Shown one piece after another: positions 4,125 to 28,846 of a DNA stretch of 64,000 nucleotides. The notes under the pieces were generated by a model. The model searched no databases. It was given only the letters and a program-made list of their open reading frames with translations, and was not told the origin of the DNA. Position 1 is the first letter of the stretch, and the number at the start of each line of letters is the position of its first letter. The stretch lies in NCBI RefSeq assembly GCF_900215575.1, contig NZ_OBEJ01000002.1, positions 1 to 64,000 of the forward strand, written 5' to 3'. The position numbers and the translations under genes were made by a program. The stretch comes from Natronoarchaeum philippinense (GTDB lineage: Archaea > Halobacteriota > Halobacteria > Halobacteriales > Natronoarchaeaceae).

Positions 4125-5339
4125 ATGTTCAACACCATCGACGACCTCGACTCCGAGCAGCGACTCCTGATGCGCGTCGACCTGAACGCGCCCGTCGACG
4201 ACGGCGACGTGCAGGACAACCGCCGCTTTGCCCGCCACGCCGAGACGGTCGCGGAACTGACCGAGAACGACCACGCCGTCGCGCTGATGGCCCATCAGGG
4301 CCGTCCCGGCCGCGACACGTTCGTCACGCTCGAACAGCACGCCGACATCCTCGCCGACCATCTCGACCACCCCGTCGAGTACGTCCCCTCGACGTACGGC
4401 GAGGAGGCCCTCGACGCGACCGAGGACCTCGAATCCGGCGACGTGCTCATGCTGGAGAACGTCCGGATGACCGACGAGGAACTCGCCGACCTGACGCCCG
4501 AGGAACACGGCGAAACCGAGTTCGTCCAGACGCTGGCGCCGGAGTTCGACGCCTACGTCAACGACGGCTACTCGGTCGCCCACCGCGCCCACACCTCGAT
4601 CGTCGGCTTCCCGCAGGTCATGGACAGCTACGCCGGCTCGGTGATGGAAGACGAGTACGAGTACAACACCTCCATCGAGCGCCGCGAGTTCGACGGCAAG
4701 GTGACGATGGCGCTCGGCGGCACGAAGGCCGAAGATGTCATCGCGGCGATGGAGAACTTAGACGAGAAGGTCGACCAGTTCCTGCTGGGCGGCATCGTCG
4801 GGCACCTGTTCCTCCGAGCGAAAGGCTACGAGATCGGCATCGACACGCCCGACGGCCCCGGCCTCTACGACGAGAGCTGGGAGGAAAATGAGGAGACGAT
4901 CCGCGAGGTCATCGAGACCTACGGCGACCGCATCTCGCTGCCCGTCGATGTCGCCCGCGAGGGCGAGGACGGCGAACGGGTCACCGAGCGCGTCGAGAAC
5001 GCCGACCACCCCGACGAGTACATGGACGTGGGCGAGGCCACCATCGACGAGTACCGACCGCACATCGAGGAGTCCGAGGCCGTCCTCGTCAAGGGCGCAC
5101 TCGGCGTCTTCGAGATGGAGCAGTTCAGCTACGGCACCCGCGGCGTCCTCGAAGCCATCGCCGAGACCGACTGCTACGCGGTCGTCGGCGGCGGCGACAC
5201 CTCCCGGGCCGTCGAGATGTACGACATCGGTGCCGAGCACTTCGATCACCTCTCGATCGCCGGCGGTGCGTACCTGCGCGCGCTGACGGGCGCGCCGCTG
5301 CCCGCCGTCGAGGCCTTGGAAGCCGCCGCCGAGCGGTAG
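4125..5339 (+). CDS. pgk: Phosphoglycerate kinase
   Basis: This 404-residue protein has the PGK opening with RVDLNAPVDDG, the substrate-side MAHQGRPGR, the GGTKAED and LGGIVGH segments, and the C-terminal nucleotide motif AVVGGGDTS. It transfers phosphate between 1,3-bisphosphoglycerate and ADP. ATG 4125 is chosen over upstream in-frame codons because it gives the standard start and normal family length. The last 19 codons (5283-5339) are repeated at 6314-6370 with only two synonymous changes, beyond an inserted toxin-antitoxin pair. The functional gene is complete. Confidence 0.95.
   Translation: MFNTIDDLDSEQRLLMRVDLNAPVDDGDVQDNRRFARHAETVAELTENDHAVALMAHQGRPGRDTFVTLEQHADILADHLDHPVEYVPSTYGEEALDATEDLESGDVLMLENVRMTDEELADLTPEEHGETEFVQTLAPEFDAYVNDGYSVAHRAHTSIVGFPQVMDSYAGSVMEDEYEYNTSIERREFDGKVTMALGGTKAEDVIAAMENLDEKVDQFLLGGIVGHLFLRAKGYEIGIDTPDGPGLYDESWEENEETIREVIETYGDRISLPVDVAREGEDGERVTERVENADHPDEYMDVGEATIDEYRPHIEESEAVLVKGALGVFEMEQFSYGTRGVLEAIAETDCYAVVGGGDTSRAVEMYDIGAEHFDHLSIAGGAYLRALTGAPLPAVEALEAAAER
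5283..5339 (+). repeat. pgk 3'-end repeat, copy A (inside pgk)
   Basis: These 57 bases are the last 19 codons of pgk including the stop. They match 6314-6370 at 55 of 57 positions; both differences (TTG/CTG for Leu, CGG/CGA for Arg) are synonymous. The two copies bracket the MNT-HEPN module. Confidence 0.95.
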
Positions 5340-5417: not shown

Positions 5418-5846
5418 ATGCAGACGCGCGAAGACACCGATGTCGAGGACGTTGATCTTGGCGCCGTCACCGCGGCGGTCGATGGGTTTCCGGTGCGCGC
5501 TGCTGTCTTGTATGGGTCTGTGGCCCGCGGAGCCGCCACCGAACGAAGCGACATCGACCTCGCCGTCACGTTCGATCCCGATCTCTCTTCGAGCGCCAAA
5601 ACGGAGGCTCGGCTTGGCCTGACCGAGCAGTTGTCGGTGGTCCTCGAAACTGACGCCGTCGATGTCGTTCCGCTCGAACGCGCGCCGCCGTCGCTCGTCA
5701 CTGACGTGATCGACGAGGGAATCCTCGTGTACGGATCGGCGTCTTCGGTTACGAGTCTTCGTCCCGATTCGCCGTCCGACCGTGCCAGTGAGGACCCTCT
5801 CGAAGAGTTCGACGAGGTACTGACCGACATCGAGCGGGCCGTCTGA
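5418..5846 (+). CDS. mntA: MNT-type nucleotidyltransferase antitoxin
   Basis: The 142-residue protein has the minimal nucleotidyltransferase motif GSx10DxD (Gly33-Ser34, Asp45, Asp47 in YGSVARG...SDIDLAV). In characterised HEPN-MNT pairs the MntA enzyme neutralises its HEPN toxin by attaching AMP to a tyrosine close to the toxin active site. The HEPN gene starts one base after this stop codon, so the two are translationally linked. The short leader 5340-5417 contains AT-rich promoter-like sequence. The pair lies between two copies of the pgk 3' end, which suggests insertion. Confidence 0.85.
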   Translation: MQTREDTDVEDVDLGAVTAAVDGFPVRAAVLYGSVARGAATERSDIDLAVTFDPDLSSSAKTEARLGLTEQLSVVLETDAVDVVPLERAPPSLVTDVIDEGILVYGSASSVTSLRPDSPSDRASEDPLEEFDEVLTDIERAV

Positions 5847-5847
5847 G

Positions 5848-6249
5848 ATGGACTCCCGTACTGAGCGGCGTATTCTCCAGAAGGCCCAGTACGTGCGTGA
5901 CGCCGTCGAAGTGCTCGCCGAGAAGCGAGATTCGCTAACACTGGCTGCGTACCGATCGAGCCGCTCCAATCGGACGATCGTCGAACGGGAGTTCGAGACC
6001 GCGATTCAGGCGTGTATCGACATCGCCAAGATGGTGCTTCGGACAGACGGCGCCGACGTACCGCCAACGAATGCGGCGGCCTTTCGACTCCTCGGTGACA
6101 GAGCTATCCTCGACGACGACACTGCCACGGGAATGGCACAGGCTGCTGGATTCCGAAATGTACTCGCACACCAGTATGGCGACGAGATCGACGACGAGGA
6201 CTGTACAACGTCTTGCAATCCAAGCTTCCGTTGTTCCTCGAGTATCTGA
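5848..6249 (+). pseudogene. hepT: HEPN/DUF86 toxin partner, frameshifted near the 3' end
   Basis: The frame encodes 133 residues and keeps the HEPN RNase/AMPylation motif Rx4HxY (Arg103, His108, Tyr110 in RNVLAHQY). After Asp118 the sequence leaves the family. Reading one frame over from about base 6206 restores a typical DUF86 tail (YNVLQSKLPLFLEYL then TQIRDYLAR) ending at TGA 6276-6278. A single missing base at about 6203-6205 therefore replaces the last helix with 15 unrelated residues. The catalytic motif survives, so activity may be reduced rather than lost. A sequencing error is the other explanation. Confidence 0.8.
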
Positions 6250-6313: not shown

Positions 6314-6370
6314 CTGACGGGCGCGCCGCTGCCCGCCGTCGAGGCCCTGGAAGCCGCCGCCGAGCGATAG
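6314..6370 (+). repeat. pgk 3'-end repeat, copy B (displaced tail)
   Basis: This is a second copy of the last 19 pgk codons with two synonymous differences. Weaker homology continues upstream to about 6290: the translated AGGVSVRG corresponds to AGGAYLR in pgk, with one extra codon. So this is the remnant of a diverged pgk gene, not just a short repeat. It has no gene body attached. Confidence 0.9.
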
Positions 6371-12290: not shown

Positions 12291-12956
12291 ATGAGCCAGC
12301 AGACCGAACCGGACGACGCCGCGGCGTCGGCGTCGATCGTCGTCGTCGACTACGGCCTCGGGAACCTCCGCAGCGTGACCCGCGGGCTCGAACGCGCCGG
12401 CGCGGACGTCGAGATCACCGACGATCCCGACGCGTTCGAGGCGGCCGACGGCATCGTCCTACCGGGCGTCGGCGCGTTCCGCGAAGGCGTCGAGAACGCC
12501 GGCCCCTACCGCGAGGCGCTCGACGACGCCGCCGAGCGCGGCCAGCCGCTCTTTGGCATCTGTCTGGGGATGCAGATGCTGCTGACCGACAGCGAGGAAG
12601 CCGACCACGCCGGCGAGGGCGAGGTGACGGGACTGGATCTGATCCCGGGCACGAACGTCCGCTTCGATCAGGGCCAGAAGGTGCCCCAGATGGGCTGGAA
12701 CGAGCTGAACGTCGAGCGCGACCACCCGCTCGTCGACGGCGTCGACGGCGAGCACGCCTACTTCGTCCACTCGTACTACGCCGAGCCCGACGACGAGGAC
12801 GCCGTCGTCGCCACGACCGACTACGGCGTCTCGTTCCCCAGCATCGTCGCCAACGAGGCCGGCAACGTGTTCGGCACTCAGTTCCACCCGGAGAAAAGCG
12901 GCGAGACGGGCCTGCAGATTCTTCGGAACTTCGTCGCAATCTGTGCCGAGGAGTGA
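12291..12956 (+). CDS. hisH: Imidazole glycerol phosphate synthase, glutaminase subunit
   Basis: HisH (221 residues) is a class I glutamine amidotransferase. It has the opening VVVDYGLGNLRSV, the nucleophile elbow GICLGMQ with the catalytic Cys, and the QFHPEKSG segment supplying His and Glu. It feeds ammonia to HisF in histidine synthesis. HisF is not in the window; HisE lies 28 kb away, so the his genes are scattered as is usual in haloarchaea. The last 11 codons start a 156-bp tandem repeat running to 13270. Confidence 0.95.
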   Translation: MSQQTEPDDAAASASIVVVDYGLGNLRSVTRGLERAGADVEITDDPDAFEAADGIVLPGVGAFREGVENAGPYREALDDAAERGQPLFGICLGMQMLLTDSEEADHAGEGEVTGLDLIPGTNVRFDQGQKVPQMGWNELNVERDHPLVDGVDGEHAYFVHSYYAEPDDEDAVVATTDYGVSFPSIVANEAGNVFGTQFHPEKSGETGLQILRNFVAICAEE

Positions 12957-13270
12957 GGTAATTCGACGGCAGCGCCGTCGGTTCACACCGAGCGAACGCA
13001 GTGAGCGAGGGGGCTTTTTCGCCCACGTTTTTCGAGGAGTGGTCGCCGGTGGCGACCCGACGAAGAAAAAGGTGGCTTCCGGAACTTCGTCGCAATCTGT
13101 GCCGAGGAGTGAGGTAATTCGACGGCAGCGCCGTCGGTTCACACCGAGCGAACGCAGTGAGCGAGGGGGCTTTTTCGCCCACGTTTTTCGAGGAGTGGTC
13201 GCCGGTGGCGACCCGACGAAGAAAAAGGTGGCTTCCGGAACTTCGTCGCAATCTGTGCCGAGGAGTGAGG
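12924..13270. repeat. 156-bp tandem repeat containing the hisH 3' end
   Basis: Units begin at 12924, 13080 and 13236 (exact period 156). The first two are complete and appear identical; the third is a 35-bp partial. Each starts with the last codons of hisH plus the stop. The complete units then carry a hairpin (CGACGGC/GCCGTCG at 12964-12980 in unit 1) and two T-runs (GCTTTTTCGCC, CGTTTTTCGAG). The repeat thus multiplies the hisH tail together with its probable terminator. Because 156 is divisible by 3, long spurious open frames cross the array. Confidence 0.97.
12964..13040 (+). terminator. Probable hisH transcription terminator (first of two copies)
   Basis: A perfect 7-bp hairpin (12964-12970 with 12974-12980, loop AGC) is followed by T5 tracts at about 13013 and 13029. 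The same arrangement recurs 156 bases downstream as part of the tandem repeat. Confidence 0.5.
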
Positions 13271-26882: not shown

Positions 26883-27494
26883 ATGGAGGTCGTCACCGTC
26901 ACCGAAGACGCCGACAGTTTCACCTGCAACGCCTATCTCGCGCTGGGCGAGCGCGACGTGCTGGTCGACGCCGGAGCGATGCCGGGCGTCGAGGACGTGG
27001 TCTCGGAGCACACCGACTCGCTGGACGCCGTCGTGCTCACCCACCAGCACGGCGACCACGTCCAAGAACTCGACGCCGTACTCGACGCGTTCGACGCCGA
27101 CCTGTACGCCTACGCCGACCACCCGCGCCGAACCGATGAACTCGCTGACGGCGATACGGTGGCGATCGGCGACGAGTCCTTCGAGGTCGTCCACACGCCG
27201 GGCCACGCCGACGACCACGTCTCGCTGATCAGCGACTCGACGATCTTCAGCGGCGACGTGGTCGTCCACGACGACGGCGCCTTTGACTACGGGAGCTTCG
27301 GTCGGACCGACCGGCCCGGCCAGTCCCGCGAGGTAGAAATCGAGAGCATCGAGCGCATTCTGGATCGGCTACCAAGCTCGGTCGAGTACATGTACGCCGG
27401 TCACGGCGGCGAGTTCCACGGGGACGTGACGGACGTGATCGAGACGGCCTTGGAACGTGCCGAGAAGCGCGAGCCGAAATATCCCGAGGAGTAA
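26883..27494 (+). CDS. Metallo-beta-lactamase-fold hydrolase
   Basis: The 203-residue protein has the HxHxDH metal motif (THQHGDHV, about residue 53), a later HTPGHADDH and a SGDVVVHDDGAFDYGSFGR segment. It resembles small glyoxalase II-like hydrolases. ATG 26883 gives the family start. Its last 11-12 codons are found again, diverged, at 28063-28097, beyond a lipoprotein gene. Confidence 0.85.
   Translation: MEVVTVTEDADSFTCNAYLALGERDVLVDAGAMPGVEDVVSEHTDSLDAVVLTHQHGDHVQELDAVLDAFDADLYAYADHPRRTDELADGDTVAIGDESFEVVHTPGHADDHVSLISDSTIFSGDVVVHDDGAFDYGSFGRTDRPGQSREVEIESIERILDRLPSSVEYMYAGHGGEFHGDVTDVIETALERAEKREPKYPEE
27459..27494 (+). repeat. Metallo-hydrolase 3'-end repeat, copy A (inside the gene)
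   Basis: The last 11 codons plus stop of the hydrolase gene, encoding AEKREPKYPEE. The first 22 bases are identical to 28063-28084. The remaining codons differ by conservative or synonymous changes (TAT/TTT, CCC/CCA, GAG/GAC, TAA/TAG). Confidence 0.85.
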
Positions 27495-27510
27495 GTAGCC
27501 CGCCGAGCCC

Positions 27511-27951
27511 TCACTCCATCGTGACGTGCTGGCAGTCTGCTTCCATGCGGAGGGTCGGACTTCCGTCCTGACCGCTGTCGATCCACAATTCGATCCCGGA
27601 CGAGTTTGAGCCGTCGCAGGGGAGTCCGGGCTGTTCGAATCCCGGCCAGTCGCGCTCGAACCGGGTGCCGTCGACTGTCACGACGACTGTTTCGGGCTCG
27701 GCCGATTTGGGGAACGGCGCGTCCTCGTCGGCCTCGTTGCTGTCCGAGAGCGCGTAGTCCTTCTCGAAGACGGCGTCGCCACCGTCGTCTCGAACCGTGA
27801 CGGTGACATCGTACGTCGCCTCGCGGTCGGACAGGTACACTGTTACCCAGTGGGCCAGCGTCGGCGACGAACTCCGGGCGGTACAGCCGGCAGCACCGAG
27901 GAGTGCTGCACCTGAGCCTGCAAGCAGTGATCGTCGATGAATGGAGGGCAT
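27511..27951 (-). CDS. Tat-exported lipoprotein of unknown function
   Basis: The 146-residue protein has a twin-arginine signal (HRRSLLAGSGAALLGAAGC) whose lipobox Cys lies near residue 22, so it should be exported folded and lipid-anchored. The mature part is an acidic beta-rich domain (WVTVYLSDREATYDVTVTVRDDGG). ATG 27951 is preferred; ATG 27972 would add seven residues. The gene is antisense to its neighbours and lies between two copies of the hydrolase 3' end. Confidence 0.75.
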   Translation of the reverse strand: MPSIHRRSLLAGSGAALLGAAGCTARSSSPTLAHWVTVYLSDREATYDVTVTVRDDGGDAVFEKDYALSDSNEADEDAPFPKSAEPETVVVTVDGTRFERDWPGFEQPGLPCDGSNSSGIELWIDSGQDGSPTLRMEADCQHVTME

Positions 27952-28062
27952 CCTTTCGGAATCGTCAACCATCCTACCTAAGAGTTGCTATGAGACGTAC
28001 ATAACGGAACGTACCCGCTGGCACGAGCGGGCGGTGGCTGTGCTCCGAACGCAGTGGGGTGC

Positions 28063-28097
28063 GCCGAGAAGCGCGAGCCGAAATTTCCAGACGAGTA
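28063..28097 (+). repeat. Metallo-hydrolase 3'-end repeat, copy B (displaced tail)
   Basis: This encodes AEKREPKFPDE followed by TAG, the diverged twin of the hydrolase end at 27459-27494. No gene body precedes it. Upstream similarity ends abruptly, as expected for a leftover tail. Confidence 0.8.
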
Positions 28098-28098
28098 G

Positions 28099-28341
28099 TC
28101 ACTCCTCGGACTCGTCGATCCCGTACTCCGCGGCGTCGTAGTAGCCATCGGTCAGCGAGAACACTATCAGCGCCCCGAAGCCGATGACTGCGGCGTAAAA
28201 CGCGTCGAACTCGACCGGCCCGATGCTGAGCTGGTGGGTACCCGGACCGTGGAACGCGACGGTGTACACCAGCCCGACGACGCCGACGACGGGGTAGTGG
28301 TAGTGATGTAGTTTCGTCAGCCGGCGAAGTGTTCCGCTCAT
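28099..28341 (-). CDS. Small two-span membrane protein
   Basis: The 80-residue protein has a basic N-terminus with a His/Tyr-rich motif (KLHHYHYP), two hydrophobic spans (about 17-33 and 47-63) and an acidic tail. No family is recognised. It is upstream of, and close to, the displaced hydrolase tail; it starts 16 bases before the stop of the next minus-strand gene. Confidence 0.65.
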   Translation of the reverse strand: MSGTLRRLTKLHHYHYPVVGVVGLVYTVAFHGPGTHQLSIGPVEFDAFYAAVIGFGALIVFSLTDGYYDAAEYGIDESEE

Positions 28342-28357: not shown

Positions 28358-28846
28358 TCATCGGTCCTCCAGTTGCTTTGCGATCGACGCCAGACTGTCG
28401 TCGGGCGACTCGGTCGCGTCGTAGAACACGCGCTCGCCGGGCTCGCGGACGCCGTACTTGAACCCCTCCTCGATCACGTCGACGAGCACCGACTGGCCGA
28501 GTTCGAGCCCCGCCGAGTCGGTCCACTCGACGAGCCGGTTCGACGCCGAGCCCGGGTCGCGCGCGAACGACGGTGCGTCGTAGGCGCCCGGGATCGAGCG
28601 GTCGCCGGCGTACTCCTCGATCTTGGCGTAGCGCTCGTCCCCGTCGATCACGAGCCGGACGACCTCGCCCGCGGGGAACGCGTCGGCGTCCCGACGAGGC
28701 GACGCCGAGTCGGGGCTCGACGAGCTTTGCTCGTCGGCGTGCTCGTCGGGGAGTTCGATCGCCGGGCGTCGCGTCGCGCCGCGACGGGCCAGCGTTGCGC
28801 GGACGGTCGTGACCGAAGCGTGGTCGGAGGCGACGCGGTCTGCCAT
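28358..28846 (-). CDS. Conserved haloarchaeal protein (DUF7112-like)
   Basis: The 162-residue soluble protein has a conserved start (ASDHASVTTVRATLARRGATRR), an acidic Ser/Asp-rich linker, FPAGEVVRLVIDGDERYAKIE and LVDVIEEGFKYGVREPGE. I recall this as the haloarchaeal DUF7112 family, with an uncertain name. The pattern suggests a beta-barrel or OB-like fold. No function is known. Confidence 0.65.
   Translation of the reverse strand: MADRVASDHASVTTVRATLARRGATRRPAIELPDEHADEQSSSSPDSASPRRDADAFPAGEVVRLVIDGDERYAKIEEYAGDRSIPGAYDAPSFARDPGSASNRLVEWTDSAGLELGQSVLVDVIEEGFKYGVREPGERVFYDATESPDDSLASIAKQLEDR

Follow-up and report, generated by a model that had tools for sequence, protein, structure and literature searches.

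An orphaned hydrolase gene end in Natronoarchaeum philippinense and its possible origin by one-sided homologous joining of alleles

Introduction

In the haloarchaeon Natronoarchaeum philippinense the last codons of a hydrolase gene are found twice, once at the end of the intact gene and again downstream, beyond an antisense gene. This locus raises the question of how a gene end comes to be displaced, and whether the gene lying between the two copies was responsible. The locus is considered here within a 64,000-nt stretch of genomic DNA, referred to as the window, together with orthologous loci in relatives and a survey of displaced gene ends.

Two tails of one hydrolase gene

The metallo-beta-lactamase-fold hydrolase gene (26883..27494, +; Pfam PF00753) is intact and has orthologues in 40 of 40 relatives. 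Its functional 3' end, tail A (27459..27494, +), encodes AEKREPKYPEE* and is matched by an orphan displaced end, tail B (28063..28098, +), encoding AEKREPKFPDE*. The tails are in frame with aligned stops and share 32 of 36 bases. The first 22 bases, GCCGAGAAGCGCGAGCCGAAAT, are identical, and the remaining 14 hold four differences, given as tail A/tail B: TAT/TTT (Y/F), CCC/CCA (silent), GAG/GAC (E/D), and TAA/TAG (stop). Before the stop there are three codon changes, one silent and two conservative. Treated as a repeat, the tails form a 35-nt match with a gap of 569 nt between copies. The original prediction had described such a pair, with 22 identical bases followed by conservative differences at this spacing, and the sequence bears it out.

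No exact same-strand repeat of at least 22 nt at 30–3000 nt arose in 60 simulated 64-kb windows (fifth-order Markov), and the 17-mer GAGAAGCGCGAGCCGAA from the repeat core occurs only in tails A and B in the whole 3.16-Mb genome. A stop-anchored control scan in the upstream direction likewise found no displaced tails in 464 kb. A chance repeat is rejected on these grounds. Tail B is non-coding, as the frame above it bears no relation to the hydrolase and its stop abuts that of a convergent gene at 28099. The two ends of the interval differ in kind: tail A continues the intact hydrolase gene, while to the left of tail B the DNA shows no relation to what precedes the tail in the hydrolase gene, leaving this junction without extended homology.

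Exactly one gene lies between the tails (27511..27972, −; probable start ATG 27951). Its predicted product shows the sequence marks of a Tat lipoprotein, the Tat motif being RRSLLAG and the lipobox GAAGC, in agreement with the single antisense Tat lipoprotein gene that had been predicted; a Pfam search of the predicted lipoprotein gave no match. The upstream or promoter region of this gene (27973..28012, −) can be aligned with the sister species, and is followed by ~50 nt of filler (28013..28062) joined to tail B, for which no convincing second copy was found in the genome. Beyond tail B lie the convergent gene, encoding an 80-aa membrane-like protein (28099..28341, −), and a DUF7112 gene (28358..28846, −) that serves as the syntenic anchor on the right.

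The lipoprotein gene and the second tail in relatives

The sister species (G001), the only same-genus genome compared, has the same gene order as N. philippinense: methyltransferase, hydrolase, lipoprotein, second metallo-beta-lactamase gene, 80-aa gene and DUF7112. Its lipoprotein gene stands in the same place (80% amino acid identity; 88% for DUF7112) and is therefore probably older than the species split, yet the hydrolase has a single tail. The position of tail B corresponds to an extra gene in the sister species. As the lipoprotein gene and one tail occur together there, this locus offers no empty site showing the event. The hydrolase gene of the sister species also carries an in-frame insertion of ~51 nt (L016, about 1999-2052) that resembles a short palindromic repeat, SASEASAGSSDRRSDG.

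The reverse arrangement emerged from a search for a second tail at ~90 orthologous hydrolase loci. In two distant uncultured relatives (L066 and L069) two hydrolase tails stand 134–140 nt apart without a lipoprotein gene, and the spacer between them is palindrome-like and alignable between both genomes. Gene and tail are thus uncoupled both ways, and insertion of the lipoprotein gene as a necessary cause of the second tail is rejected. The original prediction, a lipoprotein gene inserted between a gene and its displaced 3' end, stands for tail B, a displaced 3' end of the hydrolase gene, whereas the lipoprotein gene is probably not what displaced it. Its corollary, that genomes without the lipoprotein gene should have one tail, holds at most of the ~90 loci and fails in L066 and L069.

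Both neighbouring genes are scattered more widely. The lipoprotein gene is patchy in the order (28 of 293 genomes) and the 80-aa gene occurs in 17 of 293. Outside the genus, neither was adjacent to the hydrolase in the loci read, and the 80-aa gene was never found beside it in a search of the 293 genomes with 1.5-kb flanks read. An ancestral adjacency of the hydrolase and 80-aa genes is therefore unsupported outside the genus.

Comparison of the 36-base tails places tail A at 33/36 and tail B at 31/36 identical bases to the sister species, against 32/36 between A and B. Being nearly equidistant, the three tails do not prove tail B native, and its origin is read by analogy with two other loci. 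Identity profiles show no recombination breakpoint.

Parallel cases at pgk and a 57-aa gene

The hydrolase locus had been predicted to repeat an architecture seen at pgk, and this resemblance is upheld. The end of pgk (tail A, 5283..5339, +) recurs at 6314..6370 (+), and between the copies lies a pair of genes (5418..6249, +) encoding an MNT nucleotidyltransferase (5418-5846; PF18765/PF01909) and a HepT/HEPN protein (5848-6249; PF01934). The pgk tails differ by two silent changes. In the sister species the order is gap, pgk and histidine kinase; pgk has a single tail there and the inserted pair is absent, which makes this an intact empty site. The DNA downstream of pgk in that genome is what follows tail B in N. 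philippinense, so the displaced tail is continuous with native downstream DNA.

A 57-aa gene at 476525, outside the window on the same contig (C2 475634-476698), has an AbrB-like/PIN (VapBC-like) pair before its displaced tail, with a Pfam match for PIN alone. Of 52 aligned positions, stop included, 50 agree between the displaced tail B and the single tail of the sister species, and tail A matches less well. The suggestion that tail B would match a sister lineage is clearly borne out at this locus; the hydrolase tails, nearly equidistant, leave it ambiguous, although tail B there has the PDE ending typical of the family. From these comparisons, pgk and the 57-aa gene are best read as cases where tail B would be the resident end and tail A would have arrived with the insert. 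By analogy, tail B of the hydrolase may also be the resident end.

Displaced gene ends across genomes

Stop-anchored and direct-repeat scans were applied to one 788-kb contig of N. philippinense (C2) and to 400 kb from each of four relatives (G001, G003, G007 and G032), using rough gene calls from a simple codon-usage script. Seven loci with displaced tails were found in the 788 kb: the hydrolase, pgk, the 57-aa gene, hisH, an SDR gene (284681), a NuoI-like gene (734608) and a weak case (535226). The hisH tail (12922..12956, +) recurs at 13080 and again at 13236, the copies flanking a palindromic spacer of 121 nt. Haloarcula rara has one displaced tail, again that of hisH and duplicated around a palindromic spacer (L068 ~352, minus strand); the sister species lacks this duplication.

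The 400-kb samples yielded one displaced tail in G001, one clear tail and a cdc6-like case in G003, one in G007 and none in G032. In the G003 case, the 3' part of a cdc6/orc1-like gene (ending at 345143 in the joined sample, close to G003:C1 445143) recurs 1.6 kb downstream at 85% identity, and a nucleotidyltransferase gene separates the two. By inspection, a gene end is apparently repeated at two further loci outside contig C2 (L151 and L153). A looser gapped scan gave 12 matches in 2250 genes versus none (reversed) and four (internal) in controls. Displaced heads were few compared with the seven displaced tails; a near copy of the 5' part of a pilin-like gene lies upstream of it (C2 261818-262419, outside the window) and is probably a paralogue. 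A literature search, chiefly of open journals, turned up no account of displaced gene tails as a recurrent feature of haloarchaeal genomes.

All relics are short, about 20–76 bp. Over nine loci the tail copies differ by 13 synonymous and six non-synonymous changes (13/19), where 23% synonymous would be expected (P = 3.5e-5, relatedness ignored). This excess indicates that, at the time of divergence, both copies were mostly coding sequence, as expected of two alleles.

Probable one-sided joining of alleles

The best explanation of tail B, held at barely better than even confidence, is that it represents the orphaned 3' end of a former hydrolase allele, left by homology-assisted illegitimate recombination between alleles. 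The incoming DNA would have come from a related haloarchaeon and carried the 3' part of the hydrolase with its downstream DNA. It would have paired by homology with the resident hydrolase, with a crossover inside the gene, and its non-homologous end would have been joined illegitimately ~36 bp short of the stop codon of the resident gene. Tail A, as the incoming end, would then complete the gene, and tail B, as the resident end, would persist as non-coding debris beside its original neighbour. The lipoprotein gene would be a passenger on the incoming segment, or already beside it, and not the agent.

The short relics and the bias towards tails may both reflect what survives. Recombination between longer direct repeats would delete the insert, so short relics alone may persist. 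Similarly, selection may tolerate an insert behind a gene because promoter and frame stay intact. Nonetheless, the relic lengths lack the broad spread expected of random end-joining. Several other cases also have a palindrome whose right end is constant, a feature that would not be expected from plain illegitimate joining.

A palindromic element behind haloarchaeal genes

This palindrome spans ~65 nt and has the form TTTTTCG...CGA..AAAAAGGTGG, or more fully TTTTTCG...ACCCGACGA..AAAAAGGTGG. It occurs at 12957-13236 of the window, at C2 284660(−) and 734682(+), and in the G001, G003 and G007 stretches, and sits 3' of genes in several haloarchaeal genera. An Rfam search returned no family for it, and it folds better than most shuffles (z −2.2). 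About half of the copies have a duplicate of the last 35–76 bases of the preceding gene immediately after them. Within the sampled stretches, six different displaced tails stand directly behind a palindrome of constant type. This association suggests an element- or hairpin-driven route.

The main rival to allele joining follows from this. A tail may have been duplicated locally at a palindromic terminator-like element, by replication slippage, hairpin breakage or a tail-carrying element, giving a tail-palindrome-tail arrangement. The palindrome would have decayed afterwards, and the lipoprotein gene would occupy the interval independently. Besides the six tails, it draws on L066 and L069, where the same hydrolase shows two tails around a palindrome-like spacer, and on the sequence GGGGTGC just left of tail B, which resembles the right end of the element. 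However, the ~65-nt palindrome does not stand directly before tail B at the hydrolase locus. The filler has no strong fold and its match to the palindromes is unconvincing, with best shuffle fractions of 0.02–0.03 among several comparisons. The gene-bearing pgk and 57-aa-gene cases also lack the palindrome, and local duplication does not account for the mostly synonymous differences. The palindrome-based account is consequently regarded as possible and clearly less probable than joining of alleles.

A broader process is more doubtful still. A dedicated or element-driven haloarchaeal mechanism, neither transposition nor integrase-based, might insert the ~65-nt palindrome or small cassettes such as toxin-antitoxin-like pairs or the lipoprotein gene directly behind genes, regenerating the last 35–76 bp from another allele and displacing the old end.

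Deleted copies, integration and assembly

Tail B could instead be the remnant of a complete second hydrolase copy, arising by tandem duplication or as an acquired paralogue and since deleted. It evolved as coding sequence and its PDE ending is typical of the hydrolase family, but no coding trace is found upstream of the 36 nt, and none of the ~90 loci of relatives has two hydrolase copies. This origin is unlikely.

Integrative elements such as e14 in E. coli icd regenerate gene 3' ends. The hydrolase locus resembles them in that the gene end is restored by incoming DNA, the old end is displaced and the differences are conservative. A remnant of site-specific integration into the 3' end, as by integrases at tRNA genes or icd, would fit this anatomy, with the 22-bp identity as its core and conservative differences beyond. 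Unlike e14-type elements, the present cases have no integrase, no common target and a tiny cargo. No integrase was seen in the survey intervals examined, the hydrolase interval holding the lipoprotein gene only, and no shared att core was found, the targets being unrelated genes with unrelated tails and the intervals carrying different short cargoes. Integration of this kind is very unlikely. An assembly artefact joining two strain alleles in series is more improbable again: the genome is in 11 contigs and alleles at other loci differ mostly silently, but such joining requires reads across the junction of filler and tail B, and the single-contig genome G003 and the complete Haloarcula rara chromosome contain displaced tails as well.

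Relation to known systems and significance

If tail B arose by one-sided joining of alleles, the event would be a known recombination type in a new form, with short displaced ends at ordinary haloarchaeal genes. Homology-facilitated illegitimate recombination is established in competent bacteria, namely Acinetobacter, Pseudomonas stutzeri and Streptococcus pneumoniae (as discussed in PMC2884548), and has been invoked for displaced effector 3' ends (PMC5361080, PMC2884548). The shared features would be one homologous anchor and one illegitimate joint, with foreign DNA inserted at a gene. In contrast to the bacterial cases, the process here is read from relics. In the T6SS clusters of Vibrio cholerae, which hold orphan immunity arrays and the displaced 3' ends of effectors, and in Rhs C-terminal displacement, an incoming module similarly replaces a gene end and pushes the old 3' end downstream (PMC5361080). 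The end replaced in those systems is a different effector domain, whereas in the present cases the two ends encode almost identical conserved residues, with unrelated cargo.

The closest haloarchaeal parallel may lie in Haloquadratum walsbyi, for which the portion of the published account considered here describes frequent coupled insertion and deletion of unexplained mechanism (PMC3119063). It shares with the present cases a haloarchaeal host and foreign DNA at identical positions, but no duplicated gene tails were found described at its junctions in that portion.

Displaced gene ends are recombination scars that can be detected by a simple scan. The association of duplicated tails with one palindromic element offers a concrete and testable lead. 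If one-sided homologous joining is correct, a stop-anchored scan would reveal how haloarchaea take up single genes or toxin-antitoxin-like pairs with no mobile-element machinery, and it may also illuminate the unexplained deletion-coupled insertions.
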